Origin: Rhynchonema sp. JSB1_4 | Lineage: Eukaryota > Nematoda > Chromadorea > Monhysterida > Xyalidae | Assembly (NCBI GenBank): GCA_030248065.1 | Contig: JASAMV010004134.1 | Span: 1 to 64,000, forward strand | DNA length: 64,000 nt | Reading direction: 5' to 3' | Shown: positions 15,619-59,600 of the stretch, in pieces | Numbering within the stretch: the stretch's first letter is position 1 | Layout: each line of letters begins with the position of its first letter | The notes under the pieces: generated by a model | What the model was told of the DNA's origin: nothing | Database searches by the model: none | Seen by the model: only the letters and a program-made list of their open reading frames with translations | Made by a program: the position numbers and the translations under genes

Positions 15619-17336
15619 TCAATAGAACGAGCACATGTGCAGTATCGATCGATTGCATTTTGCCTCGAAATCCGTCAACAGCTCGTCAATCTCGTTGTCG
15701 ACGTCTTCGGCTTGTTCCAGCTGCACAAATATTGAAACATCACAAAGATAAATGAAAAGAGAAACAGAAGGTATGAAACCTAATAGTCGGTCCAAAACAC
15801 AAATCCAGATAATCCTAATGTTTATCAATGTAAGTCCATTACTGGACGGATTACGGAGTTTGATATCACCTGTAGAGTGACCAATGGATATTAGTACCAC
15901 TTGTAAAGCACGCACCTCGATGCCAGTTTTCATAAGGTTTTCATGAAACTTTGTGCACATTGAGTTCAGATGGCTGTATGCTGCACTTCTGGCAGCCATT
16001 AGCGCTGCGCATCCAATGTGCTAAATTGCTACATCAACTCACGGCTTCACACAGTTGACAGATGAGGAATGCCCCAATGGTCGCCTCTTCGTGATTGTCC
16101 TGGATGTCGAGGTTGATTATGTGCACACATTGGCCGTGTGTCGGATCGCGCTCGAGAAAAAACTCGATAACCTGCGCAACAAGATTATTTTTAGGTCGAA
16201 TCTTACAAAATGAAGTGCCTACGCACTGCGTTTGTTACTATGCTCTGCGCATAGGAGGGCAAAGTGCACAGGTGATGTATGCCTTGCCTTGGTCACCTGA
16301 CAGTTTGTAATCTATTGATGTTTGGACATTTATGTACTGATGACACGCATATTGACTGGTGTCAGATTGTTCCCAGACATCTAATAAAAACTTCGGCTCT
16401 GATCACCAGTTTGATATCGGCCCATGTGCGATTAAACTTGTCATGATCACGCCATTCAACAAAATAAAGCTCGATAAACTAACAAACAGCAGACCGGCCA
16501 ACCTGATCGTAGACCCGTTCTTCGAGACAAATCACAACGTCGAATTCTTTGTCGCACAATTGGAATCTGTCCGGATGTTGTTTGATGCGTCTGTTGCGTT
16601 CCAGCATGTGCACAATGCCGTTTTGCGTGTATCTACGACAAGCTTGGTGATTTAGATTGTCAGTACTACAGTCAAACGTCTACATAATGAACAGAACGGG
16701 ACCAGACTGCTTTGTTTACTTTTAACAAAATTCACTATGCGGAGCACCGCGTACATTTTTCGAGGTTCACCATGTGAACCGTGTTCAAGCACTGAATGCG
16801 CTTTTACGCACAGATGGCTGGCTTTCTGTATGATCCGCAGCGAGTTCATACCATATGCGTTTCCTTTGCGCAAGCTTTTTGAAAATAAATTCCTTGCCCA
16901 TAAATTGATGCCATAAAAACCTGGGAAACATCCTAGGAAAAATAACGCACAATTCCTTATCCTTCGATTTCAAATCCATGAGAATCGATTCATAGGTGGT
17001 CTCAAATTCGTATATGTTCGGTTTGTCTGGTGTCGGACCGGGCAGTTTCACCTGCGCGCCACTGCCGTAGGACAGCACGTTGAAGCCTTTCTTGCTGTAA
17101 ATGGAATGAAGCAAGATGGAACGTTTACCTATTTCAATACCTGCAAACAGCATTGTGCATGACCATACGCTCTGCACCGAAAAGGGTCAAAGTGAACTTC
17201 TAACCAAGTTTAGGACCGCAGATGCAATCAGACAATCACAGTTAACTCCAAAAAAGACCAACGTCAGCAAATGATGTGCTTCCATGCTGCGGTTCATGTT
17301 GCTCGAGCAGACAACGGCGAACTTTAGACGTGTCAT
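15619..17336 (-). CDS. ssu72: SSU72, RNA polymerase II CTD phosphatase, complete
   Basis: This protein tyrosine phosphatase-fold enzyme removes phosphate from Ser5 (and Ser7) of the RNA polymerase II C-terminal domain, within the cleavage and polyadenylation machinery in the nucleus. The five exons are 17263-17336, 16951-17094, 16503-16632, 16043-16171 and 15619-15720. They total 579 nt and encode 192 aa, matching the near-constant ~194-aa family length. The N-terminus has VVCSSNMNRSMEAHHLL with the CX5R(S) catalytic loop (CSSNMNRS). It is followed by VKLPGP, KDKELYTQNG, EERVYDQV, NLDIQDNHEEATIGAFLIC and the C-terminal NEIDELL...CSFY. Every intron falls inside a conserved block, so the splice sites are well fixed; two donors read GTTGGT and GTTGGC. 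Identification is very secure. Confidence 0.97.
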
Positions 17337-18462
17337 TTTTTGATGACGGAAAGTATCAGCTGGCTGGAAAAACAATGTGAACTGGACAAATATTTTACAA
17401 ATCGGTACACCTTTGATAAATATAGTAGCACTGGCTACGTAAAACCAGTCCGGCATACACCGAAATAGTGGCGGACGCAGCGAACAACACCCCACGAAAC
17501 ATCAGTCTCGTATTTTATTTTTGTCCAGAACATAAAATTTTTTGCTGAATTCCACTTTATGCACACTGTAGGTTTGAAACTATGACATAGCCCACAGGGC
17601 CACACCTAATATTCAGTAACTTTTTTACATTTTTAAACGACATCACATTTTTGCAATAAATGAAATGATAGATACAGCGTCGTGTTCCTCATATAAAATT
17701 GATATGCAGGCCATGCAGATGGAATGAGAATAAAAACGATGGTCATCGTCACAACACCGATCATTGAATAACTTCCAAGAGCTTCACGTGCTCTGCGAAA
17801 CATCAGCGAGCAGTAGTACACCCTCATAAATGAGCCTCAATGTTGAATGAAAAAGCGGGTCCCAATGGATTCACTACATTGCTCCTGCTAAGCATACTAT
17901 CACGTCATAATGATAATGAAAATTATCACGCGACGATGTCATGGCTGATGTTTCACAAGGGAACATTACATCAGTACTGTAAATCGGACGATAAAGTTCA
18001 TCACGGAACGAACTTCTGAAAGTTGATGGCAAAACGAAATGCTAGCCTGTGGACGAATTCTAGAAACCGACTAAAAATCCGTGAAGGACATTAGTTTAGT
18101 ACCCAAGCACTGAGGCGTTTTCTGAAGGTTCCATGAGTATATAGTTTAGAGGAATGGAATTGAACAGCAACCACACACCAAATTTGGGTCACAAAAGCTA
18201 CCATATGCTAACAAATTTCCCAGGTTAGGTATAAACAAAAACCAAAAAATATACAATTCCGTGACCGGGAACGGTCTAAGACACAATTTGGCACAAATGG
18301 ACTACAAGGAACATTCTATAAGACGGTAGCATCATCAAATGTCTGTACATCAAACCCGGGCAATAATATGGCTATAGCGACATGATTATGACTCTAAAAC
18401 ATCAGAATATTAGAACAGAATATTGTTCAGAATGGTTTGTCAAACAGATCATCCACAATAAA
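17337..18462. other. Spacer, no supported gene
   Basis: Between SSU72 and the TMCO4-like gene there are only short frames. Three GAAACATCA/TGATGTTTC motifs lie here (near 17497, 17797 and 17947). Confidence 0.5.
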
Positions 18463-21400
18463 TCACGATTTATCACCTTTCTGTCTCGCGTTTTGTTCCA
18501 CCGTCGGCTGTTTGGTGCTGCTTTTCTTCCTCTCCTCTTCCTCACACACTTGTTTTAATGGCACAGTGCCATTCGTGGTCCGTTGATGTTTCACTTTATT
18601 CGTTGTTGGCGTGTGTGCAGCCCCAATCTCATGACTGGATTGTGCTCTGCTCGGTGGCTTGATGGGTGACTGGGCACGAGGACTGGTCAGTGATGCCAAA
18701 CTGCCCCTTTTGGTTGAATGCAAGCGGGCATCGTCGAATGTCGCTGAAAATTGTGGTAATAGCTTACAAAAAAATGAACATTAGAATATTGGCATGCAAA
18801 GGCACATGTTTATCTCAACACCAACCAAACGAGGATGATGTATGCGGTCGCACATTGACACCGACAGCTTGCAGCACTTCGCGCAGTTTGTGTCGATAAT
18901 CCATGTGACCCTTCACCTGAAATTGAAAGGCAAAACCTGTTGACTGGATGGTAAAATGGAACAACAAATACACAAAACAAAAAAAACACAAAGTACATGG
19001 ATAAAAATATTACAAAACCAACAATATGTGATAAATCCACATTAAGCAGATTTGGCATGGGCGCAGTGATCGGTGCGGTGCCTGCGATTGAGTACTGAGC
19101 GCTCATCGTACGATACAGGAACTTGAGTAGCCAATCGGTTCTGCAATTTTTAGTAACCAGTAGTTTTTCAGCAGACGGTTTTCATTAAGTCAGGAAATAG
19201 ATAGACCCTTCACGCAAAATGCATTCCCATAATGACAAACAGGTCCAACACATTGACTTACTTGCAATATCCATTGACAATACGTCCACCGACGACTTGT
19301 CTGATGAGTCCCCATTCCTTCTGACTGCCCGTCACCGGTGCACCCAGAAGGTACACATCTTGTACGATTCCTAACAGAATTTCACGAACAAATCTCAGTA
19401 AATTATGTGCAAAACTACACACGACACCAGTATTCCAAAGCAACCAACCATAGCACTGCGGCCGTTTGGCCATTTCCAACAGACAATGATAGATGACGCG
19501 CGCACCGAGGCTGAATCCCAACAGTGTCACCGGTCGTTGTCCATGCTGGCGTTTGAGCAACACATTGGCCAAATGCTGCCCGACCTCGACTGCACGATTC
19601 ACACACACATTCCATGGATTGTCCAGTACATTGGCACATGACAGTAGCGCCACTGGCCAGGCGATCGCTGACATTAGACCTGTGAAACATTATTTGCAAA
19701 ACTAAACGCAGCAATATTGCTCAGTCAGTGACATGTGGGTGGTGGCTGACAAGTAGCTTTTGAACGGTCGCACCCACAACAAGGCCGAAAGCAACCACAC
19801 AAATACGTGCGCCGAAGCAACCAACCAGCAAGCGCGGTCTCCATGAGTGTCTGCTGTACAGCCAATGACACAGCCATCGACATGAAATAGTCCATCGCCT
19901 TGCCCAACTGTAACAAATACTGCGATTCGTACCGAACGGTGTATTGCTCGTGGGACACGGCCAGATGACGCCACGGCCAGCGAAACGCGTCCTCGTGCTG
20001 TTCATAGAGTCGGCATTGAAATACAGCGAGCAAAATACAACAGAAATGCAGAAAATTTGGTGTGATAGGGCGCCCCTAGCTCTGGTTTGTATTCAATACT
20101 ACGCGCATACGCTACGCGTTGGCTTTACTATAAACAGCTGACTGGAACGAGGTTTTCATAAAGCATGTAACACAAAGCATCAGCACGCTAAAACGCTAGT
20201 CAGAACATTGCACCATGAGAAACAACAATGAAACATCACAATCATCTATATTAGGCGAGCAGCACTCACATCATCCTGAATCCAGCCGGACACGCCAATG
20301 GCACAATGCAGACTCTGTCCGTCGGTCACCGTTTCGACGACAAACTCCTCGATCGCGCCCACTCGCTTGTTCATTTTGTAGCCCGTCAATCCCGCACCAC
20401 CCACACCGAATAGAGTGCCTGTGCCGGAGGTGATGGGGTTGATTTCTCATCTCAACCATTTGGTTCGCAACAGCTTGCTAGGCTGACGTGTTGCTTTGTA
20501 TTGAAAAATCAGAATACACATTAGTGTTGTGTAGAAGGGACGAAGAACGAATTGCTAATGCGCGTGTGCGTCACACATGTGCAGCACCGCTGCGAGGACC
20601 TAGTCCAACAACACACCACGTTCATAAGATGTCCAGCGCCGGAACTAAGGCAGCAAACAAACACCAACCAATAATGGCAGCTCCGGCAGTTGTGGCGATG
20701 CCGGCAGCTGCACCACCGATCACCATGCCAGCACCAGTGGCTACAAGTGGAGCTGCCAGGCCGCCGGTCAACCCTGGAATAAAATTGTGCGACTTTGTTG
20801 AACGGACGCACCGAACCCAAGACAGAAACAAGCTCGCAATTAACAGATCCAGAGAGATTGTGTGAGCATTATAGTCGGTAGATGGGGATGATGAAAGTAA
20901 TGATCCGACTTGTGACCTTCAAAAACGAAAACCAAGAAGTCCCTTACCAACAAGCACGCCCCCAACAGCTCCAGACGCCCCAATGGCGATGTACCGTTTG
21001 ATCTTCTTATTGCGTTCCGCCTTGCGTCTTGTTTCACGCGCTTCTCTGGAACAAAATTTAGGAAATTTAGACGAAACCACAAACTGTCAACTGAAATTGC
21101 CACAAGACACCACAGTGGTTTGAACAGAACCAACACTGACGCAAACTGTGTCACATAATTCAGACTATTTCCAATAAATTTCAGGCAACAATATTCAACC
21201 CCACTTTCTTGCTTCCCGTTCCTGCATTCCACCAGAACCCCAGCTCACCACAAACACAGCTCAGCGGTTTTGCAATTATGACGCAGGAGCTGCGCTGCAG
21301 AAAAACGTTCAAAATATTAGTGCCGTTGCCGTGAGCACTAACACTGTGGTTCTGTGCTGCTTGATCTGCAGCGGAATATTTATGTGTGCTGCATCTGCGC

Positions 21401-24124
21401 ACGTGCTGTGTGCATAAGATCACAGCAGATATTCATGTTGTGCTTCAACGCACGGCACAAATACTCTGCACTTCTTATGCACAGTCAGACAGCAGCAAGT
21501 AACCGACTATCAGCTGGCAGTCATGTGCCTGTCTGTTGACTACAACCAATCCAGCTTTGGCAAGTAAAAACGCAATTTTATGTGAGCCGCCGGCTGAGCG
21601 TAAAGCTGACCAAACGGCAGCAAGTGGTTGGTTTTGGAACGACAAAAACGATTGACTCATTACGGACTGACTGACTTGACTTCTTTGCTGCATGATGATA
21701 CAATGGCTGGGATGCAGGAACAACGAACGCAAAAATTTATAATACCATACAAGACAAACAACAATTTTTTTGTTTTACCCACTTTGCCAGCTGCCACTTC
21801 GTCAATTGTTCTGAACTAGCAAAAATGCCAGCAGTTCAAGAGTCACTTTCACAACGCACCGCACGTCCATAAGTAACAATACAACATCAAAGGGAAAACT
21901 AAAAAGGCTGTGCATGTTTACGACATCTAACGTGTTTCAATAGCATTTTTGAGAAACTTACGGATCAGCCCTGTGGAAATTAAGAAATGTATTCAGAAAG
22001 TTTATTATAGAGAACACAAATATACATCAAAGTGCGTTCAGGCTTGAAACATCGAAACTGCCTTTTCAGGCACATAAGCATCATGTCATCATGACAGTTA
22101 CCCGAAAATGCATTCTGAAGCGATCTTTTCAAAAGATTGACACTGTATATTGGTGGGCAACACTCGAAAATTACAAAATCCACAAGCCAAACGTCATGCT
22201 ACATAACCATGGGAAGTTGTTGTGTTTGGTGCAATTAGTCTGCACTACAGTCAAGCAAAGATATTCTAGCATACACTAAATAGCGTCGAATTCCCTAAAT
22301 AACTCACTCCGATTCGACGAACGCCTCTTCGATGAGCAGATGGGCAACGCTGTCCTCAATCGCCTCCACCTCACACCAGCTCACAGCCAACAGTGCGGCC
22401 ACGTGACGCATCAGGGAGCGGTGACGGCTGTCGTAGCAGCCTGAAACATTAGGTTGATCGTGGTCCTGTTATGAAATCATGAACCTAATTCCCTCAACTC
22501 AGCGTGGGACTAACAAAATACATAGCGGTTTGCTGCCCAAAAGGGGTCATCAAAATTAAGCCTGTTATTGTTGCAAATTCATGCACACTAGTAAAGGCAA
22601 TCTAGCCGCTATTCCCCGCCGAAAATAACAAACGAGAACACCCCAAAAAATCCCCCCCAACCCAAAAAAAAAAATCTTCTCCACCACATATACATCCACC
22701 CCCCACCACACTAAAGGAAAATCGCTTAAGTCGAAAAACGGTGTAATGGCTCAGGCTCTGGTATACTGTAGATTTCGCGGCGGTGACATCAGCGGCTGGA
22801 TTGCCTATACAAAAATATGCACAACGACGTCAAAACGTTGATAAAAAAAGACACGTTGGGCAAAAATGACCGCGCGGAGCGCGAAAAAATTGAGGCAATT
22901 TTTGTAAAGAAAATTTTGTTGAGCGAAGAAAGATAGATTTTGGCAGCTTGCAAGACAGACAGATAGCCGAAAAACTACATCACTGGACTTTTAGTTGCAG
23001 GATTACCTGCATAGTTTGACGTAAAAGCAGTTTATAAAAACAGACAGCATGAACATGATCTAACGACGCACGAAACTAACATTCTACTTTAACTCTACCG
23101 TCAACGCACCAGTGCTAATGAAGGTGCTGATCATGTCGGCAAACAGAATGGGCAAGCCGTGCTGTTGCAGGAAAGCACATCGTCTCAACGCCACTATCAG
23201 ATCCGTCACTTGATGACCACCCACATGTCCGGGGGAAGACAGATGGGCACGAATTTCGTGCTCCATCTGCAAACAGATTTGGAATGTTTATGTGTTTATC
23301 CGTCTGCCATTTCTTTCACCTGTGGATTTTTATGAATAAATGAATAAAGAACCTATGATGAAGATAAACACAAAAAAACTGTTGCGCTACTTCTTATTCA
23401 GATAACTGTTTGAAACCCAATTCTTCAAAACGTCTGTCACTCACTTTTTCGTCAAGTTTCACACGTGCGATCATTATGTCCGCCGTTCGCACACAGAATT
23501 CTCTGCAAAAGACAGTAGCACAAAGTGAAAAACATTCTGGCCTGGGCAATATATTCTAATAAGATTATCCAACTTGTTATATTGTTTGTTCTCGAGGAAA
23601 TCCAGTGCAATGATGGTCACAACAAGGTCACAATATGCTCGTCGAGTGACCACGTCCAGTTCAGTGGCCAGGCTCACCGCACGTTTCACATAGCCATCCG
23701 CATTGCTGCTGTCTGAAACATTATCTATACTCAGTTTGTTTTTTGCAATATTGTTTGAATTTGACAAGGCAGTCGTCCAACCACCGCCAGTCGCATCATC
23801 ATCGTTCTTCAATTCCAACGTCACGGTACTGGGTACGGCGTGATCCTGATCGTCCAAGGTGGTTGCCTCAAATGCTGCACTCACATTGCTGCACGTGGCC
23901 GAACTGCGTCGGTCAGGCTCCTTCTCACCACCACTACCCTGCCGAGACAAGGACCTTTTGCCGCTACCCTGACGAGACAGGGAACTCTTTCTGCTATTGC
24001 TGTTGTTGTCATTACCCGACGCAAACAAGGACTCCGATTGCACAGTGCTGTCATCATCATTGACTGGGAGAGAGCCATTAGGTTCAATATTTTCATCGTT
24101 TGGGGGTGGAGTTTGAGAAGCCAT
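18463..24124 (-). CDS. tmco4: TMCO4 / DUF726 family membrane protein, complete, 13-14 exons
   Basis: This matches the TMCO4 family, multi-pass membrane proteins with an alpha/beta-hydrolase-like DUF726 region; their substrate is not established. Exons: 23574-24124, 23445-23502, 23110-23266, 22308-22440, (21964-21972 possible), 20948-21045, 20669-20773, 20270-20418, 19826-19997, 19449-19679, 19262-19370, 19023-19140, 18826-18916 and 18463-18743. Without the micro-exon they total 2253 nt, 750 aa, in one frame. Family landmarks in order are a Ser/Gln/Asn-rich N-terminus with repeated SLSRQGSG, IKRYIAIGASG, then GLTGGLAAPLVATGAG (glycine/alanine-rich helices), DNPWNVC, LLGFSLGARVIY with the GFSLG nucleophile-elbow motif, VYLLGAPV, GRIVNGYC, TDWLLKFLYR and VKGHMDY. 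The C-terminal tail is basic and low-complexity. Six of its donors read GTTGGN. Start is the first ATG in the long frame. Confidence 0.92.
21310..21468. repeat. MITE, CAGAATATTAGTG family, copy 4
   Basis: The left end is CAAAATATTAGTGCCG and the right end is the inverted CACGGCACAAATACTCTG, spaced 159 bp apart. It lies in an intron of the TMCO4-like gene, on the stretch between exons 20948-21045 and 22308-22440. Confidence 0.55.
22615..22720. repeat. C/A-rich low-complexity intron tract
   Basis: Homopolymer runs of C and A inside an intron of the TMCO4-like gene, with no coding potential. Confidence 0.7.
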
Positions 24125-25056
24125 CTTTGAACGGCGGCTTGAAAAATCAGACAAGCGAATTTACCACCACAATGAAGTGACTGACGAAATAGAATCAGTC
24201 ATTTTTGGTAGTTTTCTTAACATTTCTTCGAGGCGCATGCGAATTGAACGCTTTAAAACTGAAAGAAATTCTGATTTCGCCATGCTATCACACTTATGAA
24301 AATGCCACGGTTGGAGCAAATATTTCGTGGTCTCAAGCAGCGAGACCACGTTGGTAAATGCAACCGACAAGCGCAAAATCCACGCAATTGCGCAAAAACG
24401 CCGTAATTTATTTATCTACACGAACAGAGCAACAGTCACAAACGCTAGCTGTGCTATGTAAAAATGACAAAGCAAAACCGTCGGCCTATGGGAACATTCT
24501 TCTGTATCACTGTACCGGACTAGCCAATGTTGTTTTTCGCTGTCCAGTGCTTTTGAATAAGCACACTGGCAGAGAGTCGATGTAAAAATGAATACACAGC
24601 TTTGCTGTAAAAGGCAGTATAGTATTGGTGTTATCAGGCAGCTAAACGGATAAGATACAACACAAACGGACATCCTGCCGATACAGGTTTTCCAATAATA
24701 AATCCTTCGTAATGCTGAGCAAAAATTGAATAAAACTAGATGTTCTGCAGGGATCAGAGGCTGAAATCATATATCTTACAATATGTGCATTATAACTTAA
24801 AACATGTGGAAATACCCGACGTTTCCAAGAAACTACAATTACTGACTGCAACATCCACTATAAAATAAGCACAGAACTCTAGATCAGCACACGACTCGGG
24901 TTTTCATACACATGCACAAGCTCGCAGTTCGGCGACGAGGGAAACGCCATCAGACAGGTACACGAGACGAAATATGCCGCAGAATATCTGTGAACTAGAT
25001 TTGTGCGGTTATAACGCACGGCACTGAAACTCAACCCGTCTTGCCTGTCTGTCATA
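24125..25056. other. Spacer between TMCO4-like gene and CHCHD3
   Basis: This stretch contains the 5' leader of the TMCO4-like gene and the 3' flank of CHCHD3. No supported coding exon was found. Confidence 0.5.
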
Positions 25057-25817
25057 TCACCGACTGGTCAACATGTCCATCCTATTCTGATTGACGCATT
25101 CTTCGAACTGTTTCACGTGTCCGGCACACAACAACGACTGGCGTGCATTCTCCGTGTAACATTTGATCACTTGTTGTTCCTGTGCGGCACACGCCGAGTT
25201 GTACTGCGCTGGCGCCACCTGACTGGAGACCTGTTTCGATTTTTCATCCAACTTTTCAGCCATTAATTTCTGCAAAGCGCGTTCACGCTCTTGTAGATCC
25301 GACATGAGTTGACTGTTGTAGGTGCTGTCTTCGGTGCTTGGCGATGAATTGAGCTCGCTAGATGATGTGGACTGAAAACAGAAATACCGTCCTAGTTTCA
25401 TTCGACCTGCGTGCGTATCAATGCCAACCTTTGTTGAGCTGTCAGACGAATGCGGCAGGTCAAGTTTGTTGGTTTGTTTCTCAAGTTCGTAGGCTAATTG
25501 CGCTCGTTCGTCATCGGATGGGGCACTGGAAGTGAAACCCGAAATGCAGTAGATTGCTCTTCTGCAGTGCTGGCGAATTCGGCACATTTTGGCAAAAATT
25601 TCCACAGGACATCCACATCCAAGAACAAGTGAACAAACCCTCTCCCTCTCTCCGTTTTCGCTGTCCCATCATTTTTCTCATCCACATTTTCTTTTGAACT
25701 CGTCGTCGAGCCAGTCAAACGTCGAACGACGTCTTCCGACACCACGACCGTGTTGAATGCCTCGTTGTCCGCCTCTCGTTTGCGTCTGTCCGCTTCAACA
25801 CTTTGTTCGGCGCCCAT
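25057..25817 (-). CDS. chchd3: CHCHD3/MIC19, MICOS complex subunit, complete
   Basis: MIC19 is a peripheral inner-membrane protein facing the intermembrane space that helps form mitochondrial crista junctions with MIC60. Exons 25639-25817, 25429-25525 and 25057-25371 total 591 nt, 196 aa. The N-terminus starts MGAE, with Gly2 suited to myristoylation as in the family, followed by VVVSEDVVRRL, similar to the family's ...VRLSENVIDRM segment. The middle is charged and helical (about residues 93-150). The C-terminus carries the CHCH twin: CAAQEQQVIKC and CAGHVKQFEEC, both C-x9-C, with CYTEN between. This twin is the substrate for oxidative folding by MIA40. One intron is only 57 nt and has a GTTGGC donor. 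Confidence 0.93.
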
Positions 25818-25947
25818 GCTGATTTGTGATTGTGACTGGGTGATGACAAGACAAATTTTGTGCAGTGACTGACTAGACAATACCACTTTTTAGACCCAAT
25901 ACCAGTCAGTGCAGTTCCTGCGGGTGGAGGGGCCCCCTCGGGTACGC

Positions 25948-26740
25948 CAGTGATGTGGTTGGGGGGGGGTATGGGGGGGTATTACCCCCCCCCCACTGCT
26001 AGGTAGCTTTCTTGCTCCGAAACCCATACCCCCCCCAAACTGGCTAGCTAGCTTTCTTGCTCCGGTCATCAAGTAAGAAAAGTGTTGATTTTAGTGCCAA
26101 AATGACCATTTTATGGGCCAAAATGGTCAAATTCGTTCAAATTTTCTCACACGTGCACAAAAATACGCATTTTAAGGCTTATTTTAGCATAATTTCGACC
26201 AAATTTTATACCCCTGTTTTTGACTTCTGGACCAATACCCCCCCCCCAGTGTAGTTCCTGGGGGGGCGGGGGGATCCCCCCCCCCTCGGGTACGCTATCT
26301 CCCCCTCGGGTGGTACACTATCCCCCTATCTCCCCCTCCGGGTACACTATCTCCCCCAATTTTCGCCTAAAATGGCCATTTTTAGGCCTAAAATGGGCAT
26401 TTTTAGGCCTAAAATGTGTGATTTTCAGGCCAATGTTCTCAAAAGTCGCCAAAATACCCTTTTTATGAAGAATTTTTTCCAAAAAGGGGCAAAAATAGGT
26501 CAAATTTTCTCCCTCAAAAAGTGACTTTTTCCCGAATTTGGGTCTTCCCCCCCCCCTTCCCCCCCCTCGGGGGTACACTATCTCCCCCTCCGAAAAAAAC
26601 GGAGGGTCCGCTATCTCCCCCTCCGGACCAGGAACTACACTGACCCCCCCCAAATCGGGGTACCCGGCTAGCTAGCTAGCTTTCTTGTGCCGGACCCCTC
26701 CAGCTAGCTAGCTTTCTTGCTCGGACCAACTACATCACTG
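25948..26740. mobile_element. hAT-like element, middle layer, 8-bp TSD GGGTACGC
   Basis: The ends are CAGTGATGTGGTTGG and the inverted CCAACTACATCACTG. Exact 8-bp duplications GGGTACGC occur at 25940-25947 and 26741-26748. Repeated GCTAGCTAGCTTTCTTG blocks lie on both sides of its own insert. It carries no transposase and contains another element at 26247-26642. Confidence 0.85.
26247..26642. mobile_element. hAT-like MITE, inner layer
   Basis: The TIR is CAGTGTAGTTCCTGG on the left and its inverse on the right. It is nearly the same as the copy at 30339-30726. The flanks are C-rich, so the 8-bp duplication (approximately ACCCCCCC) cannot be read cleanly. Confidence 0.8.
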
Positions 26741-27094
26741 GGGTACGCTATCTCCCCCTTAGGTGGTACACTATCGCCCTATCGCCCTCTCCTCCGGGTA
26801 CACTATCTCCCCCAATTTTCGCCTGAAACAGGCATTTCTAGGCCTAAAATGGGCACTTTAGGCCTAAAATGTGTGACTTTTAGGTCAATGTTCTCAAAAG
26901 TCGCCAAAATACCCTTTTTGTGAACAATTTTTTTCAAAAAGGGGCAAAAGTAGGTCAAATTTTCTGCCTCAAAAAGTGACGTTTCCTGAATTTGGGCCTT
27001 CCCGCTTCGGGGGTACACTATCTCCCCCTACCCCTCCGAAGAAAATGAGGGGTCCACTATCTCCCCCTCCGGAGCAGGAACTACACTGATACCT

Positions 27095-27430: not shown

Positions 27431-27479
27431 TTTACGTATTTGTGCTAAAAAAAACACCGATTTTGAACCAATGAGTCAG

Positions 27480-28694: not shown

Positions 28695-28701
28695 ATTACT
28701 A

Positions 28702-28896: not shown

Positions 28897-28898
28897 TA

Positions 28899-29192: not shown

Positions 29193-29264
29193 TATATAAA
29201 AGTCTTTTACTGCAGATTTATACCCAAAAAACACCCAATTATGGCCACAAAAACCCACACACAA

Positions 29265-29745: not shown

Positions 29746-29780
29746 AGTTCTGTCAGGGTGTTACTGGTCATTATTGAGTG

Positions 29781-30338: not shown

Positions 30339-30726
30339 CAGTGTAGTTCCTGGGGGGAGGGGGGCCCCCCTCGGGTACACTATCTCCCCCTCAGGTGGTA
30401 CACTATCCCCCTATCTCCCCCTCCGGGCACACTATCTCCCCCAATTTTTGCCTAAAATAGGCATTTTTAGGCCTAAAATGGGCATTTTTAGGCAAAAAAT
30501 GACTGATTTTGAGGTCAATGTTCTCAAAAGTCGCCAAAATACCCTTTTTCTGAAGAATTTTTTCCAAAAAGGGGCAAAAATAGGTCAAATTTTCTACCTC
30601 AAAAAGTGACTTTTCCCTGAATTTGGGTCTCCCCCCCCCTTCCCCCCCCCTCGGGGGTACACTATCTCCCCCTCCGAAAAAAACGGAGGGTCCGCTATCT
30701 CCCCCTCCGGACCAGGAACTACACTG
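30339..30726. mobile_element. hAT-like MITE, solo copy, 8-bp TSD AGGTGTCT
   Basis: It has the same 15-bp TIR and interior as the copy at 26247-26642. It is flanked by perfect AGGTGTCT duplications at 30331-30338 and 30727-30734. This copy defines the element boundaries for the nested stack upstream. Confidence 0.9.
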
Positions 30727-47700: not shown

Positions 47701-50689
47701 GATGATGTTGTCACCTCTTTGCTCCACAAAATGGTTATGATTGCAACTGTAGTAAAGATGTGCACTCACACCCTGCACAAATATTCCGAACGAACTGTCT
47801 ACGCATTCTAATACAAATGGCTTCCCCCGATGTTCTTCATTCGCAATATGACCAGCTGAGAAACCAGATGCGCGCTTCAGATTCCAACCCTTTCGCTTCC
47901 GTTTATCTTGTCAAAAACATTCGATCCGACCTGTGCACCTTCAGTGCAATTTTAATCGTTGTTTTGCTTTCACGCTTCCGGCATTTGAACGCAGAGAATT
48001 CCTTTGGTTCAGTGCAAAACGTTTTCTACTATTTCGTATGGTTTGAGAATGTATGCTGTATTTATCCGGCGCCACCGATGTTCATTTTCTGCCATTGACA
48101 TGGGTATGCCTTCATGAATTTGACAACTACATATGTGTATCTCATTGGAAGTTTACACCAAGCAAAACCATGTGAAATTTTTCCCTTCCAGTAGGACGAA
48201 GCCCACCCATACAAATTTAATGTCTTTTGATTGTCCAGCCCTCCGACCTCAAACTATACAGTATAATAATTCACAGTTCAGAACGGTTCTCATAGTTTTT
48301 AGCATTGTGGTGCCGTGAGCTAAACCGCTGTTGTTTTTAACCGCAGGCGGCCTCATTACATAATTGTTCCTGACCCCATCGTTAATGGCGCCCAACTCAG
48401 GCGTGTCAAATTACAGCAGAAATAATGTGGACACTTCAGAAAATTGGCCACGGTTTCAAAAAGTTGGGCGTCTGCAACTGATTGTTATTACGTCGCCGCA
48501 GCAGCATTATTTTTCAGTATTTTAGGTGTTGGGTGCAACACGCACACCATTGAAACATTGAGGCTCGCACCATACGCTAATTTCCGCACATTTGGCCCTC
48601 CATTGCCAACATGTAAGCTTTTGCAGCACTTTTTGTAGCCGATAAACTGTTCGGCAGTTTTTGAGACTTTTGGTGTACCCCCTCTGTCATTGTGCAGCAT
48701 TTGCAGCAAAAGCACAACAAACAAAACGTGGACAGCTTTGGGAGGGGGAAACTTCGGCTGCGCACCGGCAGAGCAAAGAAGCAATTCCTCACAAAGTGTG
48801 CGTAGTTTTGCTGCTTTTTATTTCAACCACCGTTGGGTTTGCGAAGCGCACAGTTGCTCCACCTCCGATCACAACACACCGACGGCCCGAAAACTGCTGC
48901 TCCACAGAGCTGTTGACTTCTTATAATGCTTTCCTATGTTGTTTCTAGCACATTATGTAACAGTTGAAAACGTAAAGCTTCACAAACACTCCGATCTCAA
49001 GCTGGTCGTACGTAACCTGCTAAATACTACTGGGCTTTGCAGATGTCACGTTTTGGGCTTGTTTTGTATGTCGCCTGAAACATCAAGTTGACGTGCCACT
49101 TGTCATAAGAATGAACATTATCACAACAGCTCTCAAAAGCTTCAGTAACCAAACCAGACGGAAAAAGTGTATTGTTTCGTGGGTAGCCTGTGCGCCTCCC
49201 CTTCCCCCAGCACACATTGTCCAGGAAAAACGATTATTTTTTTGACAGTGCCTGCCTGGTGCTGTTATCAGCAAATCAACAAAAGTTGCTGTGATCATTC
49301 ATTCACTGTCGTGCTGTGTACATCCGCGGTCAATCACAATTTTAGTGCATCGACGGTCTTGTCTTGTGCTGTGATCAGAAACAAGAATAAAAAGTTGTAG
49401 GTCAGACATCATACTGTACCGTCGGAAAACGCGCTTCAATGTGCTTAATTAACCACTGGGCACAAATATGCAACATGTCAATCAGCTCAGGCCGTAATCA
49501 CAACACGATAGATCCGTCGCATTTCATTCGTGCTGCAAGCATATTGTAATTACATTGTAAACGCTTTAGGTGCGTAAACGTCAACGTTCTCATGGTTGAT
49601 TCATTGCATGACCGGAGATTGATTTTCATGACATTATCTCAGCTTAACCTTTCCGTGTTGGTAATCTTTGTGCGTTGTTCATTTGAGGCGTGTGATCAAA
49701 AAACGTAGTTGCCCAGCATTGATTCAGACCGACTTGATCTGGAATTCAATCTGAACTCAATTTCCAATTTTGTGCAACCGAAATTAATCCCGATCTACAT
49801 GACTATTACGCATGTAGGTTTCACTTTATGATTTATCTGTAAATACGTAAATGTGTCATTCACAGGCGCCCACATGTTCGCAAACTCAAGGAATTCAAAC
49901 GTTGAAGCCGTTGGAAAGGGGAAAACCAGCCCAACCCCAAAAAAAAACCAAAAAAAGTTCCCCCCCCTCCCCCCCCCCCCCCCCCACCCCCCCCCATAGT
50001 CGCTTGTAGAATTATGTATGTGAAAATTACTTTTTCGTTCTGTTTGCCAAAGTATGAGTTGTTGCTGTTTTCGTCACTAATACTAATCTCAAACAGCAGT
50101 GTTACAAAGCGAAAGTGTTTTGTTGGATGCTGACTGGGTTGCTCTGAACCAGATTTGCCAATGGAATCCATTTCGAAACTTGGTACGGCGCAATCAAGTA
50201 CAATTTGCGGCAAAATAATTGTTTTCTTCTGTTTCAATTGCGGTTGAAAGTTCAGAATCGGTTTTCCAAATCTCAATTGCAAAATTTGTTTTCAAGGCTA
50301 TCTCTCACACAAACTCAGCTCGACCGACACACCCTGAGGGAAGTTGGAAGAACTGAATAGTGTGCTCATGTCTCTTGATTGAAAACTTTCCAGCCGACTA
50401 TATCGCCGCAGGTTATCTGGCATTTGTGATTGACGCATGATGGAAACATGCATTATGGAAAAGCAAAGCCTGAAGTTGTTGTTCATAGAATATTCACAGG
50501 CGACTGACGTTGTTTATGGCATAGATTTTCTTGTTTATGGTGATGAATATGCTACAAAACATATCGCATGTGATGTTATGCTGAAATTTACAGTGAAACA
50601 TCAGCTCACCGTCATTCAGCTCAGTCTACCTGAGTTTCAAACAAACGGTCACACAATCTTGAAACATCAGCCAGTCAACCTATTTGCAG
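44759..50689. other. Mostly repeats and unassigned sequence
   Basis: Apart from the foldback at 45527-46570 and a C-rich homopolymer tract near 49960-49996, no gene is well supported. A protein-like frame with a GTTTAT donor (47820-47901) could be an alternative exon of the downstream gene. Confidence 0.4.
45527..46570. mobile_element. Mutator-like nonautonomous element with 9-bp target duplication
   Basis: The TIRs extend about 49 bp. The left begins GGCATTTCGACCTGGG and runs through three ACGTTACCCATGTTACCC-type units. The right end is its inverse, ending CCCAGGTCGCAATGGC. The 9-bp CGGCGGGAG lies at 45518-45526 and 46571-46579. Nine-bp duplications and long TIRs are typical of Mutator-like elements. 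The interior has GGGTACCC palindromes and a ~58-bp direct repeat (about 45842-45899 and 45936-45991), but no transposase. Confidence 0.8.
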
Positions 50690-53600
50690 ATCAGTTGCAT
50701 ATGGCACGTGGCAAGTTGGTTCGGCGCGTCGCCTGCTGACATCAGCCACGTCCGACTACTCCCTCTCGCACAGTCCCGAGGAGGAAATCGATAATTCGGC
50801 AGGCGATTCCAACAACAACCCCTTGATCGGCGACTATATTCGCGAGAATTTCATGCCCAAACTGGCCGCCTTGCAATATCAGGACACGCTTGACTTGGAC
50901 ATCAACACAACCAGTGGAATGGCCGCATCGGTGAAGCCGGACTATTGCACATTGCCAAAGGATATCGGGGGATTTCGTGCACATTTCCATGACGCGATGC
51001 AGTGGAAGTACACAAATGGTTAGGGCAGGATTATGAAACATTCGGTTTTGAGGTGCCTTATGCCCAGCTGCGCACTTCTCGGACGATATTCTGCTTTTGT
51101 GATAACATTTTTCTGATAACGTTTTTCAACCCTACAAGGCCAGCACGGCTCCCAGGTGACTTTTTGTCTCATGTCCGGTCATCTTTGTACATTGGGACTG
51201 ACGATGACTTGGGGCATCACTCGTCAACAGATGGATACGGGCAACTAGTGTTCACACTATCGATAGTACCTACGAAGCTGATGTTTCACAATACACAGAT
51301 GCTGTCGACCAAGCGCCATCCACTAGTGGCGATAGTGCGTTCGGTTCGGGTTCGAGTCCCGGCGTGCCACAACGTTCGTCTGAACCATCACCCAATCAGC
51401 ACGGTATCGAACCGTCAATCGCCGATTATGGGGAGACACTGCGTTAGTTGATTGGCTTTGTCTTTTATAACTTTTCATGGAAGTAACAAAATCGGTTTGC
51501 GATTAAAGTCTGCTGATTCTCATTCACATGGACAATAATCTGATGCATCGTCGTGAGCCTGTTTTTCTACATTCTTTATTTCACTGTAACTGACTGTGGT
51601 ATGGATACGGACTGAATTCACTAAACGCAACTCAGCAACGAGCCTACGTTCAAGTCCTGAACTATGATGTTGCCTGTCAGTCAACCAACCACCTTTGTAG
51701 CCGTGCACGACGACGTTGATTATTTCGCCGGTGGCCCCACTTTGCAAGAATTAGCCAACAGAAAGTACCAGAACGCAAAAGAGACACGTCAACGACAACG
51801 CAGCCTGTCACCCGCTAACCAACGTTGGTGCCACTTTTTAATTCAGAAAAATTTGCCTATACAGTTTATTGTTACGACCTATGTATTTTTATGTTTTAAA
51901 ATTTCATTTGGCTTTTAATTCGACCTCACGCAGTTTGAATTTATGTGCATAGTATCTTGGAAACAATAGCCGTGATATTTTTCGTAGAAAACTGCCTAAT
52001 CGGCCGGTCGTTTTTGAGATGTCGAAACTCTTTTTTCACATCTAAAATTAAACCAAAAAGCGGCGGAAACGTCAAATTGCGCGCCTCTCTGAGACGCAAA
52101 TAGAGTGTGCCTAAAGCTTCCGTTGACTAAGTCGGTTATCAAAGTTAAGCGGGTGAGATAAGGCGCAAAGTCGTGTCGGATAAAAATCTCGATTACGCGT
52201 CATCTGCGGTTATGTGACATTTCATAACCCGCTGCATATTGGGGAACAATAAGACCAAGGCAACAAATGTCCCGAATAACCGCATTTGCAAAGAGGCCGT
52301 TCTGTTATCTTGTGCTTTGCATGACACTTCACCTTCCCATCTTCGTTTGCCTCAAATTTCGAGGCAGGTTGTTTTCCGTATTAAAGACGGATTTGCCTCT
52401 CGCGCACTACACCACCGACCTTGACTACTATCAATACCCACGGACAAGTGTGTGGTCTGGTGTTACCGCAGCAATGTCGGAATATTAGTATCATGCATAT
52501 CTAGCAGCTTTAGCACAACTCAGCGTGCCTCCAGTTCTCGATCACAACTTGCTGTGCAACAATTCTGGTCGTACCCTGTTTATACACACGGCATCAATGT
52601 TCAAATTCAAAATCAATACTATTGTGACCCTTGCGTGTGTGTGCGCACAACGTAGCCCGAATTGTACGCTTGATTTCCTTCCCTCGTGAGTTCTGTCATC
52701 ATGCAACACCAGCGTTGAGGAGATGTTGTTGTCGAGTATATTGTCATACACGAAAATTTGCGAATACTAGGATGTTTGTTCGCGCTTTCACTGCTCACTA
52801 TTTTCTCATCTAGATTCGTGCGGCTATTTAGCAATTAGCTCATTCAAAAGAACACAGAAATAATTGAATTTTCTTCGTACAGCTAAACAACTATACACGT
52901 ATACTGACATGATGATGTAATCCCCTCTGGACACAAAGCAAATTTGACATTCCTAAAAAATTCAATCGCGTTTTTTCTTTCATTATACATTGAAATCGAA
53001 TGGTACGTAATTTTCTTGTCGGTCCAGTCAATAATTTGATTACGAAAACATTTGTAGTGGTTTTTGAGGTCTTGAAAATGGAAGAAAAACTATTTTTCGG
53101 CACCGCGACGCGATTTTACTCTGCAATTCTCACACGCACCTGTTTGAAAGTAATCGCTTCAACACGATTTCTCGCGCAATGGAATTTTTGGATTGTTTTG
53201 GTACAGTGCACTTTTGGATATGTCACACTTTTTACACAGAATACATGACAAGGGTGAATTGCACGCACATTATCACTGAAAGAATAGAACTAAATTTACA
53301 CTTGATGGAATTTCTACAGGCAATTCTTTGAAATTCCTGTGAAAATAGTTGATTTATAAAAATTATGCTAAAGTGGTGTGTGTGATGCCGCCATGTTTTC
53401 GTCGTATTTCTACAAACCAGAACTGTTTCTGAATGTTTTGATTAAAAATCGCGCGATTTAATTTATCGGAACCACAATACACTTTAAACAGGCAGCTTCA
53501 AAGCAGCGTTTCATTTGCTCAATAAACTATAAATAACTTTTTCGTAACCAGCAGTAAATCTTCAGTCAGTGGGTTTGCCGAACAGACCATAAATTTATTC

Positions 53601-56600
53601 CACAAGGCAGCAGCTGCGCCTTGGACGTTCTGTCCGAATTTAAATTGGTTTTCCGCCCTATTTTTTGTGTTGTTTCACTCATTTTTTGCTTTTTTGTGTC
53701 TCAAATTGCCATTTTTGGGCTTCACGCTGTTTGAGCTTGCTCTTGCTCCAGTATTGCAGCAACCATAATGTTTTTTCGGATCTTCTAAGTAAAAAAAAGA
53801 CTTTTCCGTGGCCTCAGATGAGATCAGGTTCTTCAATCATGCGAAAGCGCCTAGGCCAATCTCATTTTGGCTAGTTCTCTTCCCTGGCGTTACTCAAAGA
53901 CAATCGTGAAGTCAGTCAGAGCCGTTAATCAAGTTTTAGATGTTTTTCTTCGATTTTTGCCCAACGCCCTCACAAAGCGAACAGTTGGTCTTTTTTGCAA
54001 ACGCGCACTTGTGTGCAGAGACCAGTTTCGGTCGGATTTCGATGCAGCCGGAAAATTGTCCACCTTTTCTAGACATTGTAGTTCCTTATTGTTTGATTTT
54101 GCTCGTCGAACTAAAACACGGCAGCTGCTTTGGGAATGCTTTGACATCGGCTTGGCTTGGCTTTATTTTATGTTTCTTATTCTTGGCTTTCAACGCGGAT
54201 AGAGTTGTACTTGATGCTTTGTTGTTGTAAGACGATGAAGCTCTCTGCACTTAGACTTTACATCTTGTGAATGGTTTGTTTTAAGTGTGCAGATGTACTC
54301 GATTTATGTATTTTGACGTTCCTTAACGATGTTCCACACTAGTTTAGTTTACGTAACCCGATGCCAACATCTGCTTGGTAGCACCCATACTTGCTTGCAA
54401 CACAATCCTGGGCGAGAGAAGTTCCAAATGCACAGACTGGAGAACGGGACCCCACATTTAAAAGAATGTGCGTCGTACGGTATGGTCCTGTGCTTCAGTC
54501 GCACATAAAAGCGAGTGATTTACGTAAAAACAAATCCCGTTATGTGTGACGTACATACCTTTCTGTCGGATGGTTGACATCTGCTTCGAATACACGTGCA
54601 AGCGCTGTAAGAGGCCAATGGCACGTGGAATCACAGTAACCGGTCCTGCACGCGTCGTTGTTTCAACGTTTTACGTGCCACCCGTCATCTCTCCCAGACG
54701 TGTGTCCTATTGAGCCCTTACATAATTCCAAATTGCTGCGTGCGACCCCCGAACGCGCTGTCGTAAACTACCCCAAAGCTGAGTTCCAAGTTCACTATTG
54801 TATATGTATGTGAAAGCCTAGGCTTCTCGCGAGATAATTTTGAGTCCGAAATCACTTTTCTGCACAGTTAAAGAAAGCTGAAAGTCACTTTTGAATGGCT
54901 GCATTTTTACTTTCACTTGGTGTACATATATGCCAAACCCAGTTTGGAGCCGATTTTGCCATTCGTATAGTTTGGACGCGAGTAAATCATTCACCCGAAA
55001 TATTAGTTTTCGTACTTTTTGGGCTATTTAATCACAAAAGGGAACCCCCAGGACGTCAAGGCAGATGCTGAAGTCCTTCCGTCATCTGGCTTGTCATTTT
55101 TGCAAATAATACGCTCCGTACTATTCTTGGTGCTCCAAAAAGCTGAAAAAACGCGCGCACGTATTTCCCGCGGGATTGCGCCCATTTCTTTCTTGTCTAC
55201 ACGACGACAGAGAATCATATCAGAAAAGTTTCATTTCCTCCGGCCGCCCTCTGATAATGGCTGCTTGTGGTTCTATTGTAGGCTCCGGAATATTTGTGCA
55301 GCGCGCGGGTGCACATGCAAGTTGCATTTGGAATCAGCAACTAAGTAGCGTGAAACAACTTCAACAAACGATGCTTTTGCGACTCAGTAATACATAGTTA
55401 TAGTTCGGCCAAAAAACGCAAGTGCTGTATTGTTTCGAAATTCGTTCCAGTTCAAGCGCCAACTTCGGTTCCCGTTTTACAATCCACCCGTTTCACATCT
55501 TTGTCCCAAGTTCAGGCACTTGATGTCATTCAATATGCGCTGGTATTCTGTCAACAATCGAGAGTGGTCAATGTTTGATTGACAGATTTATTGTGATTGT
55601 TTCTGGCCAGATGGCATTCTCATGTCTCTGTGTCTCGTACCACCTTGCATCTGACAGACAACTCTTTTGTTTTTGCCGTCTTTGGAACAAACTATGTACT
55701 CTCATTTTTACCATGCCATTGAGTTACTTCAAAGTTATGCCACAGCTGTCCGCTGTTAATATACTGCTGTTGTTTTTCGTGAAAATGTTCTGTGGGTCAC
55801 AGTTTTTGAGTTGGTTAAACGTGGCCCGCAATGGGTGGCACGACCGGACAAGGGTCACGGCGCTCACATTACTTGCACCGGTATTATTTATTTGTGACGC
55901 TCAACGCAACTTTTTGCACCCGCACTTTTTCTCGTCGTCAGTTTTGTGCCCGCCGTGTAGGTGTTAAGTTTTCAGTGCTTCACGGACTATTCATGGCTTG
56001 TCAATGATCGTGTAGACAGCGTGATTACAGTAGGTATTGATTGCACAATGACTTTATAAGAATTGGTCAATTTTTTTTCCTGATTCGTAAAGAGGGAAAG
56101 TGACGGGGCAATGATGTTGCGTTGCGCGATCACACACAAAACAAAGTAAAGAGAATGTTTCAGATCTGCGGCAACGTGGTTGATCTGCTAGATTATTTTC
56201 AGCTGAAAATGTTTTGTGAAAATCACAAATTACAGAGTGGTTGCTGAACTTGAAATCAGGATTGATTTGATGAATTCTTATATGGCCATTGTGCGACCAA
56301 TATTGTACTGTATGTATAAATACGGAACTTTCGTGTTGGCAGGCGTCACCACAGTCACTCACTACGCACTTCAGCCAGCCTGTGTTGTTTTTTCACCATT
56401 CGTATTGCTTTTTGGACGTCTATGTAATTTATTATCGGCGAGCTCACGACTGAGCCCACCAGCAAAACGGGTGACAAAAACAACACGAAGCGATTTCAAC
56501 TGCGAGCACATTCCCAAATTGACACCTGCTTTCTATATGTTGTTCCAATGGCGTTGCCCGAACGCTTTTTAGTAACGCTTGAATGCGTCACGTATAGCTC

Positions 56601-59600
56601 TAGATATTGTATTCACAAAATGTGTTGCTTTTTGTCGCTTTATGGTGCGGCCCTCTTTCTGCAATTATTGTGTATTTTTATGAGCGTTCTTTTCACCATG
56701 GATGCCTTCTATTGCGGAACGAATTATAGTGTGGTCAGCGCATGTATGTATGTATAATAGATGGATATTGGTATAGGTAAATTACAAATGTGACACTAGT
56801 AGTGAGTAGAGAAGTGGTCGCTGGCACTAGTGCCACAGCGGAACGCCACTAATATCGAAATAAATAAATAGCTCGATAATAAGTAGTCCAATTTAGAAGC
56901 GGCTGCTGCTGTGGACAAGCCCACACGTAAGCTTGAGATAAAGAGCTCATTTGGGCAATGATGCATACAAGATTTATTAGGCGCCTGCGCCTGACTCATT
57001 CCTACCATTTTCGTCAGTAAATTTGGGCTTCTGAAAATATACAATTTCGGTTCCCCACTGCGGCCATAGAGGGACTAGAACAGATATTGTCCACTTTGGT
57101 CATTTTGCGAGGTGATTAATTGCCGTGACTCATGCTCTCTCACATGAATTAGACGTGTAAACGCTTCGACTGGAATCTCCATCGAGCTGTCCTTTGTAGT
57201 GACCGACAATTCCATTTCACCAGCATGCTGTTTGGTCAAAACAGTTAGGAATTCGAATTCGCGCTGAAAATGGCATTCAGCGCATGAAATTCTCATATTT
57301 GCGGAAACTTTGCATTCTGTTATGCTACGAAGAATTTTATCACAAGTTGGCCAGCCATGCCTCAGTTTTATTAGGCCAACTTTTGACCCCATATTATGTT
57401 GACAATAGCACCATACGAGCATTTTATAACCTCCAACATATTTTGAACACGGAGTCAGTCATAAAGACAGGGCGCACTTTTATCACCGTGCGAATGTTTG
57501 CTTCCAGTACATGACGCAAGAGCATGTGCACTACTCAATTTAGGATATCAGTGCGGTGTTGTGTGCCAGTCCAAACTCATGGGAACAAACTATGTACTAC
57601 ATATGTATACGTGCAAAGACGTAGTGTACTGATGCAAGCGGCACTAATATTCTAAAACTGCCATCGAACTTTGTTATCCGTCGTGCTCTCTTTTTAGCCC
57701 TCACATTCATCCATGCGCTTGACTGGACCCTCATCCCTGTTCTGCTTTTGTGCTGTTCAGATTTTGCTGTTCCCAACCCTGATTGTCACGCAGTGGCAAG
57801 CAACGGCCCATAAATTTCCAAAAGTAAATTCACGGAGTGCATCTTCGCGAACCCAATATACAGTAAATCCCCAGCTGAACTCAACCCACCCACGTTGAGG
57901 ATTTCCGCTAGACCAAACCTCCCCGATTCGGCTGAGCCTCACTGAGTTGAAATGTGCTAAGGCTGCCTTGCTATTTCAACCCATTGCTGTTCTGCGAATA
58001 TTCCTTTTGGCTTCACAAGGCGCGCGCTCCAGCCATTATGAAGAAACCGTTTCAATTTTATTGTTTATAGTGTTTACAAAACTATTATATAAAACCCATC
58101 AATGGTTGTACATGCAGTCCATTGTATTGCAGGTTCCGGCTCGGACCGGTCTAGGAAATCAAGCGACGGCCGCCCGTCTCCGGACCGAGACCAGTCGCAT
58201 TCCCAACACTCACATGCGCACGTGCACAGTTTGCTCAAAAATCTGACGTCATTTGTCACTCTGAGGCGCCGGGACACTGCAAGTTGGTGGTCTTGTTGTA
58301 AGATGTTGTTTTTTGCTTGAACAGGCTTTCGCACAAGTATGTATGTACCTATCTTTATTTGGGCTTTTAAAAAATGCACGTAATACACGAGAAAGTACAT
58401 AGGTACAGTACAACCACAGCATCGTAGAATGAGAAATTCCAAAATCACGCAATCTCCCGAGTCCAACGAAGCTCCATGACAGCTCGGAAACGTCCCCGTT
58501 GCATGTATTCCGCGCTCTACTCGTTGATGCATAAAGTACCGTTTGATATCGTCCTCCCCAACAAAAACCACACATTGCAGACGAGCAGAAGATGAAGCAC
58601 AAATCCCGTTGCCCGGCGCATCACAGCACCGACGGCACGGGGGTCACCACCGGGCACACTGACGAGTCCTCTGGTTCACCACGGCTGTTGGCGCATCATC
58701 GGTCGCATTCAACCGGCAACGCGGCCATATTCAATGTGCGATGGCCATCGATGGGCCATCACTCGAAGGACAAGGATGTCAATTGCAATGGAGTGACACA
58801 CAACGGCACATTGCCCGCTGATCTGAAAGGTGGGCGGGATGGCATAGCTCATTGATGTCACACCCGTCTGTGACACTGGGTCGACACGGCAAGGCTACAC
58901 AATCCATGGCAGCACGTTTCAAATTCGGGCACTGAGACATTCAGAAGCCAATTCGTTTGTTGCGCACATAGTTCAGTAATTCAGTAACAAATCACAAATC
59001 ACAACATGTCTATGCCAGGTCACCACCATCACCGAGCGCATGGGCCGACGGCAGCTTTAATCGCGACCAAGAACTTTCTGCGTCGCAAATTGCTCAGCAA
59101 CAATCATAACCACAATCACCACCATCGGTCAACTACAACAGAATCGGCTAATCGAAATGGCATCTACCGACAAGCGGACTCGTTGCCAGCCACACCGAAT
59201 GCGAACAAAAAGCGCTCGCTATTGCAACAGAATGGTGACCTGTACATGAACATCTGCAACAACAACAACCCCAATCATGTTGTCAACTCGGATTGGTATG
59301 GCAATTACGACAATTTCATTCTGAAACCGGCAACCAATTTTTCGTCAGAGACGGATGGGGGCCATTCATATGACGATGCTGATAGTGGAGTATTACCCGA
59401 ACTACCTCGTGTGTTTGTGGAAGCACTGAGATTACACGATTCGGCAGCCAATACCAGCAGCACAAATGGGGAATTGCTGAATAATTACCCGGATTCGAGC
59501 AGCAGCCAGGGAGATGACAGGTCGTTGAGTCAAACGCATTTCACCAGCTGGGACGACGCCATGAAACAGCTGAATGCAGATCTGGTCAGTTACGGTCTGA

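Follow-up and report, generated by a model that had tools for sequence, protein, structure and literature searches.

A GTTGG class of 5' splice sites and a candidate U1 snRNA counterpart in the nematode Rhynchonema sp. JSB1_4

In the genome of the nematode Rhynchonema sp. JSB1_4 (Xyalidae), a group of introns begins with GTTGG, and the donors (5' splice sites) of this group are a second class and not the tail of the usual GTRAG class (R, purine). The same genome carries two loci for a U1 small nuclear RNA (snRNA) with A as its sixth base, hereafter U1-A6, and the reading that we consider most likely, judging from the sequence and with somewhat better than even confidence, is that this second U1 serves the GTTGG donors. 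The analysis started from a window of 64 kb (assembly GCA_030248065.1, contig JASAMV010004134.1, positions 1 to 64,000; C2511 in our numbering), in which a preliminary description had pointed to such donors in several genes, among them SSU72 and TMCO4; the genome analysed comprises 203.9 Mb in 5747 contigs.

A second donor class in otherwise ordinary introns

Donors were pinned by aligning homologous proteins to the genome with a program that demands AG at the 3' end and GT (or GC, at a cost) at the 5' end, and that is blind to donor positions +3 to +6; the end dinucleotides of an intron are thus partly built into the result, but the frame and the protein match are not. Among the 52 donors pinned in SSU72, TMCO4, small GTPases and importin alpha, GTTGG and GTRAG each account for 11. 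The two positions that set GTTGG apart are coupled: G stands at +4 in 14 of 17 pinned donors with T at +3, as against 5 of 33 with a purine there (p=5.5e-6), and the coupling is also seen outside the window (7/10 versus 5/25, p=0.015). GTTGG itself is observed 11 times, where independence of positions would give 5.2. The initial view that these donors lack the usual purine at +3, A at +4 and G at +5 is correct for the first two positions but not for the third, where the G is present.

The class also emerges from gene finding with a donor model that knew nothing of it. A hidden Markov model (HMM), seeded with coding sequence from SSU72, TMCO4 and GTPase exons together with long open reading frames, was trained on the window and on 20 evenly spaced contigs (first 10 kb of each), its donor model being initially flat after GT. 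In these sequences GTTGG is the most common donor 5-mer (19 of 172), whereas the expectation is 3.1 when all GT sites are taken (p=5.5e-10) and 4.3 when the comparison is confined to GT sites at most 60 bases away (p=7e-8); GTGAG comes second (10 versus 1.8 expected). GTTGG makes up 136 of the 8005 GT sites of the window (1.7%; background about 1.8%). Six dinucleotide shuffles taken together yielded 8 introns, and 6 were predicted in the reversed sequence, none of them with GTTGG, as compared to 194 introns in the real sequence (window overlaps counted). We have very little doubt that the class is real. The flat model places GTTGG at 8 of 40 window introns; once donor positions could be learned, a step that favours whatever has been seen before, the window gave 42 introns, with 12 GTTGG, 6 GTGAGT, 2 GTAAG and 3 GTTAG donors. 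The GTTGG figure is close to the preliminary count of about 12 in 36, in which about seven donors were GTGAGT and GTAAG was rare.

Apart from their donors, the GTTGG introns are ordinary U2-type GT-AG introns. In the gene-finder set their median length is 186 (n=35) versus 184 for the others (n=159), C occupies position -3 of the 3' splice site in 89% and 86%, respectively, downstream of a T-rich stretch, and branch-like CTNAY motifs occur in 9/35 and 46/159. All 11 pinned GTTGG introns have GT...AG ends (the aligner permits GT/GC-AG only) and leave the reading in frame with the homologous proteins.

Two U1 loci with a change opposite the third intron position

A search with the Rfam U1 model (RF00003) revealed 10 loci, 9 of them above the cut-off, these counts being lower bounds, with 41 of 4243 first-look candidates scored. 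The 5' end reads AAACTTACCTGG at six loci, AAACTTACTTGG at one, AAACTTACCTCGG at one weak locus and AAACTAACCTGG at two, L006 and L007, which lie on two different contigs (C137 and C4510; 101 and 87 kb), reach 109.4 and 106.9 bits (cut-off 69.5), and span model positions 1-166. These two read AAACUAACCUGG where the ordinary loci read AAACUUACCUGG, so that U6 has become A, opposite donor position +3; this lends support to the earlier suggestion that a variant U1 snRNA could explain the GTTGG class. Both contain AAACTAACCTGGCGGGG, and their 5' end is ACUAACCUG in place of the ACUUACCUG of U1. When the genome was searched for exact matches to AAACNNACCTGGCNGGG, 11 were returned: six TT and two TA forms, each of which lies at a U1 locus, and three that by eye are not U1 (the backwards control gave 2). 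A BLAST-type search with the L006 U1 returned 9 loci, all already known, and no further U1 forms.

Several features suggest that L006 and L007 are not plain pseudogenes. A promoter-like element, ATGTTTCA..GAATGAC, lies upstream of both variants and of four of the six ordinary loci (with one base changed in two), and L004 and L008 have a diverged version of it. Stem changes are two-sided, CG to UA in the 3' stem of L006 and UA to CG in stem I of L007. Both variants have the loop ATTGCACT and a U run, AATTTTTG in L006 and AACTTTTTG in L007; we take the AUUGCAC loop to be the U1A site and the U run to be an Sm-like site. Outside the 5' end the two loci differ at 24 of 151 body positions, yet they agree in the 5' end and in three loop-I bases that are absent from the other eight U1 loci.

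Calculated pairing with the two U1 forms

In U1-A6, A6 would pair with U at +3, U5 would wobble with G at +4, C4 would pair with G at +5 and A3 with U at +6, and the variant is predicted to match GTTGGT no less well than ordinary U1 matches GTRAGT. Duplex energies calculated with standard RNA parameters, pseudouridine being left out, illustrate the exchange: for CAG|GUUGGUUU the values are -10.6 kcal/mol (ordinary U1) and -14.4 (U1-A6), and for CAG|GUGAGUAU -14.0 and -9.8, respectively. U6A thus improves pairing with GTTGGT by about 3.8 kcal/mol, and GTRAG loses about 4. For the 11 pinned GTTGG sites the means are -4.5 kcal/mol with ordinary U1 and -8.3 with the variant, and for the 11 pinned GTRAG sites -8.1 and -3.9; therefore, each U1 form suits one donor class about equally well. 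Replacing ordinary U1 by U1-A6 improves pairing by 1 kcal/mol or more for 15 of the 52 donors and worsens it by that much for 31. We infer that U1-A6 is transcribed, enters a U1 small nuclear ribonucleoprotein (snRNP) and is used at GTTGG sites. We would give about even chances to the more far-reaching scenario in which two donor codes run in parallel and are mixed within genes such as TMCO4, GTRAG being read by ordinary U1 and GTTGG by a U1-A6 snRNP dedicated to it.

A number of observations weigh against a role of U1-A6. When all 33 single-base changes in U1 positions 1-11 were scored, U6A came third by summed gain, after the larger U5G and U6G, and as to donors gaining at least 1 kcal/mol (15 for U6A), four of the twelve changes listed reach 16 to 19. 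Among the 15 letter pairs other than the ordinary one at U1 positions 5-6, UA comes seventh and CA second by summed gain; because such rival single and pair changes score higher, U6A is a good match without being the only one. The exact pattern search of the genome yielded no U1 with CA at these positions, which would complement GTTGGT perfectly. U1-A6 pairs with GTTAGT slightly better than with GTTGGT, yet only 1 pinned donor is GTTAG as against 11 GTTGG. Another factor favours G at +4 when T is at +3; this G, which the variant alone does not explain, would probably be set at a later step, e.g. by pairing with the ACAGAGA box of U6, or by a U1 protein. The sequence of loop I, presumably where U1-70K binds, is GATCATTGAG in the two variants and GACCACGAAG in ordinary copies; L007 also has a C instead of the A that precedes the U run of its Sm-like site. 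These changes may weaken snRNP assembly. A tree of the U1 genes gives no clear answer as to whether L006 and L007 are sisters. Finally, GTTGG is infrequent in the small-GTPase genes described below.

Alternative explanations

It is possible, although unlikely, that ordinary U1 alone recognises GTTGG, that a later U6 step or U1 proteins (U1-C, LUC7) favour the class, and that the U1-A6 genes are minor or inactive. On the U6 side, the G after the central A would wobble with U at +3, and A43 would form a non-Watson-Crick pair with G at +4. This explanation accounts for +4 G better than U1-A6 does, and ordinary U1 retains +5 G, and in many cases +6 U, as pairing partners. It can also draw on the usual ACAGAGA box, present in all five U6 matches over the cut-off (two full, three partial) among the nine found, and in two of the four below it, the other two lacking the box. 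On the other hand, some GTTGG sites have nearly no exon pairing to rely on, e.g. att|GTTGGTTT at -2.6 kcal/mol with ordinary U1, and the matching pair of U1-A6 loci is left unaccounted for. METTL16 we take to be the U6 methylase; since its Pfam family is present in the genome, loss of N6-methyladenosine (m6A) in U6 is not indicated, and loss of the methylase was rejected as a cause of the class, as was a change in U6, given the box at all five loci over the cut-off. In favour of this explanation, a published model for Fritillaria borealis, in the part of the paper available, has intronic +4 G suiting U6 with less m6A43 (PMC13326754). Negative coupling of +3T with +4A is reported, in the available part of another study, for 60% of the plant genomes analysed (PMC10599564), and therefore the pattern may in part reflect how later splicing steps behave in general.

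As regards the other genes of the machinery, there are two equal matches to U1-70K, two LUC7 loci (C1980, C4709) and two zf-U1 loci of the U1-C type (C5047, C3791). A duplicated U1 protein was considered as a cause of the class, and the LUC7 and U1-C pairs might be paralogs that accompany the two U1 forms. Truncated U6 copies, covering the first 54-59 positions only, lie on C933, C478 and C3247, beside the two full copies.

That ordinary U1 binds GTTGG in a shifted or bulged register, as the preliminary description had considered, is very improbable. Over all 35 GTTGG sites of the gene-finder set the best free duplex with ordinary U1 is indeed out of register or bulged at 18. However, the duplexes are weak on average (-5.2 kcal/mol), 17 of the 35 are in register and the offsets of the remainder are inconsistent (+4 at 5, -4 at 5, bulged at 3, others at 5), whereas U1-A6 pairs in register at 29 of the 35.

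We see hardly any room for a separate kind of intron, either U12-type or mobile introner copies carrying GTTGG; a separate intron class had been among the initial suggestions. The common start motif and GTTGGTTGCTT, which two TMCO4 introns have in common, might be taken in its favour. However, the U12 donor motif is RTATCCTT, which the GTTGG donors do not fit, lengths and 3' splice sites equal those of the other introns, and none of the 14 intron-to-intron matches at E<=1e-3 among the 194 introns joins two GTTGG introns. A genome search for U12 RNA (RF00007) gave no match, but the controls gave none either, and no search was made for U11.

An artefact, in which protein-led reading misplaces donors because GTTGGT encodes Val-Gly and may lie close to the true sites, may be dismissed almost entirely: the GTPase donor L061 can indeed be read either as GTAGCA or as a GTTGGT that overlaps it, but three TMCO4 GTTGG sites are agreed on by 41/41 homologs and GTTGG leads in donor-blind gene finding, above the neighbouring GT rate. 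Misplaced donors and, separately, one common shifted register were rejected, the former with the shuffle and reversal controls and the latter on the scattered offsets.

Frequency outside the window

The share of GTTGG is lower elsewhere in the genome. With the flat model it is 11 of 135 donors on other contigs without overlaps and 3 of 43 in unseen flanks (60.6 kb), and with the learned donor model 23 of 152 outside the window. In the small GTPases, 3 of 33 donors are GTTGG and 5 of 33 GTRAG; this sample comprises 26 short stretches around Ras-family exon matches, from loci selected for short introns, and its donors were pinned with human GTPase sequences, the ambiguous L061 being retained as GTAGCA. 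Importin alpha (L045) contributed 4 usable donors of 7, one of them GTTGG; three junctions (GTCCGC, GTGCAA, GTGTGC) were excluded for poor alignment, and with them the overall figure for GTTGG would be 11/55. Since GTTGG is richer among the pinned window donors than in the GTPases (7/15 versus 3/33, p=0.006), the original claim that it makes up a third of the introns holds for the window (12/42; 7/15 pinned) but not for the sampled genome, and we estimate a genome-wide share of 10 to 20%. For comparison, GUUGGU begins 929 of about 215,000 human introns, about 0.4%, according to the available part of the source (PMC5387049).

Two of the contigs with Ras-family matches, C3958 and C4230, each carry mirrored exon pairs with near-equal scores, which may be inverted duplications or an assembly artefact.

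Introns and genes of the window

The introns pinned in the window, and the GTTGG introns placed there by gene finding, are listed in the table. Five homologs were aligned for SSU72 and 41 for TMCO4, in each case of 120 listed. The four junctions singled out in the preliminary description (17262, 16502, 19825, 19448) were all reproduced, as were its readings after HHLLT and YDQ in SSU72 and next to LMSAIAW, AAII and SHI in TMCO4. Eleven TMCO4 donors were counted as pinned, ten with 28 to 41 of the 41 homologs and one (20269) with 17, so that GTTGG accounts for 5/11 in this gene; 20269 was retained as GTGAGT, although 21 of the 41 homologs prefer a GC six bases further on. Junctions with at most 8 of 41 homologs (24064, 23894, 18830, 18825, 18819) were excluded, among them 18825, which is GTTGGT. 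The gene finder differs at two places: for 22441..23109 it sets the donor at 23105 with a different 3' end, and in 21046..22307 it retains the donor and divides the stretch by small extra exons.

Table. Introns of the window pinned by homologous proteins, and GTTGG introns placed by the gene finder
Feature	Position	Strand	Donor	Support
SSU72 intron 1	17095..17262	-	GTTGGT, after HHLL-T	5/5 homologs aligned
SSU72 intron 2	16633..16950	-	GTGCGT (other class)	5/5 homologs aligned
SSU72 intron 3	16172..16502	-	GTTGGC, after YDQ	5/5 homologs aligned
SSU72 intron 4	15721..16042	-	GTGAGT (other class)	5/5 homologs aligned
TMCO4 intron	23503..23573	-	GTTGGA	30/41 homologs
TMCO4 intron	23267..23444	-	GTGAGT (other class)	28/41 homologs
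TMCO4 intron	22441..23109	-	GTGCGT (other class)	37/41 homologs
TMCO4 intron or intron group	21046..22307	-	GTGAGT (other class)	33/41 homologs
TMCO4 intron	20774..20947	-	GTAAGG (other class)	41/41 homologs
TMCO4 intron	20419..20668	-	GTTGGT, after AAII	41/41 homologs
TMCO4 intron	19998..20269	-	taken as GTGAGT (other class)	17/41 homologs
TMCO4 intron	19680..19825	-	GTTGGT, before LMSAIAW	41/41 homologs
TMCO4 intron	19371..19448	-	GTTGGT	41/41 homologs
TMCO4 intron	19141..19261	-	GTAAGT (other class)	40/41 homologs
TMCO4 intron	18917..19022	-	GTTGGT, after SHI	39/41 homologs
TMCO4 3'-most intron	18744..18825	-	GTTGGT	gene finder; 4/41 homologs, not counted as pinned
TMCO4 5' part, intron	23713..23781	-	GTTGGA	gene finder only
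Predicted gene with ASC (DEG/ENaC) channel match PF00858, intron	7821..7898	-	GTTGGT	gene finder only
Predicted gene upstream of TMCO4, intron	25372..25428	-	GTTGGC	gene finder only
Predicted gene, intron	51824..51933	+	GTTGGT	gene finder only

The closest named relative of the SSU72 protein among the matches listed is that of Romanomermis culicivorax (67% identity), another record reaching 70%. In a TMCO4 tree of 37 rows with a midpoint root, the window protein groups with 16 rows that are nematode or without a species name, with 100/100 support; it forms a long branch, and its position within this set is not settled. Taken by themselves, these protein comparisons would suggest an early-branching nematode or a relative of nematodes, for example a nematomorph. 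The predicted gene around 51824..51933 has no Pfam match at E<=0.001. Matches to the ASC family on the minus strand comprise a C-terminal end at 6089-8277 and an N-terminal end at 10210-11656, which may belong to one gene. Tandem units (CTATCTCCCCCTC.. and GCCTAAAATRGGCATTTTTAG) are common to 26295-26431 and 30380-30500, and these blocks are probably copies of one repeat element. A PDB search with a predicted protein that by eye resembles TIR-1/SARM gave no match.

Relation to known systems

The two classes of 5' splice sites that have been tied to m6A in U6 are reportedly split by the strength of the exon end versus that of the intron start, with one U1, and not by +3T and +4G. What they have in common with the present case, in the part of that study available, is that donors fall into classes (PMC9803359). 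On the U1 side, there are the human variant U1 snRNAs (vU1, e.g. vU1.8), whose 5'-end changes, like the one seen here, could read other donors; the accessible part of that paper describes no abundant donor class to match, whereas here the class equals GTRAG among the 52 pinned donors (PMC5159530). Fly, frog and sea urchin possess several U1 isoforms per genome, some of them developmentally regulated, and, unlike here, no matching donor class is described for them in the portion of the source available (PMC4291461). Fritillaria borealis resembles Rhynchonema in having many unusual donors in an animal genome, together with a proposed role of +4 G; however, GT-AG is kept here and U1 itself is changed at one base, as far as the comparison with the available part of that paper goes (PMC13326754). 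No report of a GTTGG donor class was found among the literature matches listed, subscription papers lying mostly outside the search, nor was a table of donors for C. elegans, enopleans or other nematodes, and the available part of the Trichinella gene-structure paper (PMC4022200) gives no donor letters.

Implications

For annotation, the practical consequence is that gene finders trained on GTRAG would miss many introns in this genome. The occurrence of a common GTTGG class and of a matching U1 base in one genome makes their co-evolution directly testable. If the proposed relationship is true, Rhynchonema would be a naturally occurring example of a change in U1 and a donor class evolving together.

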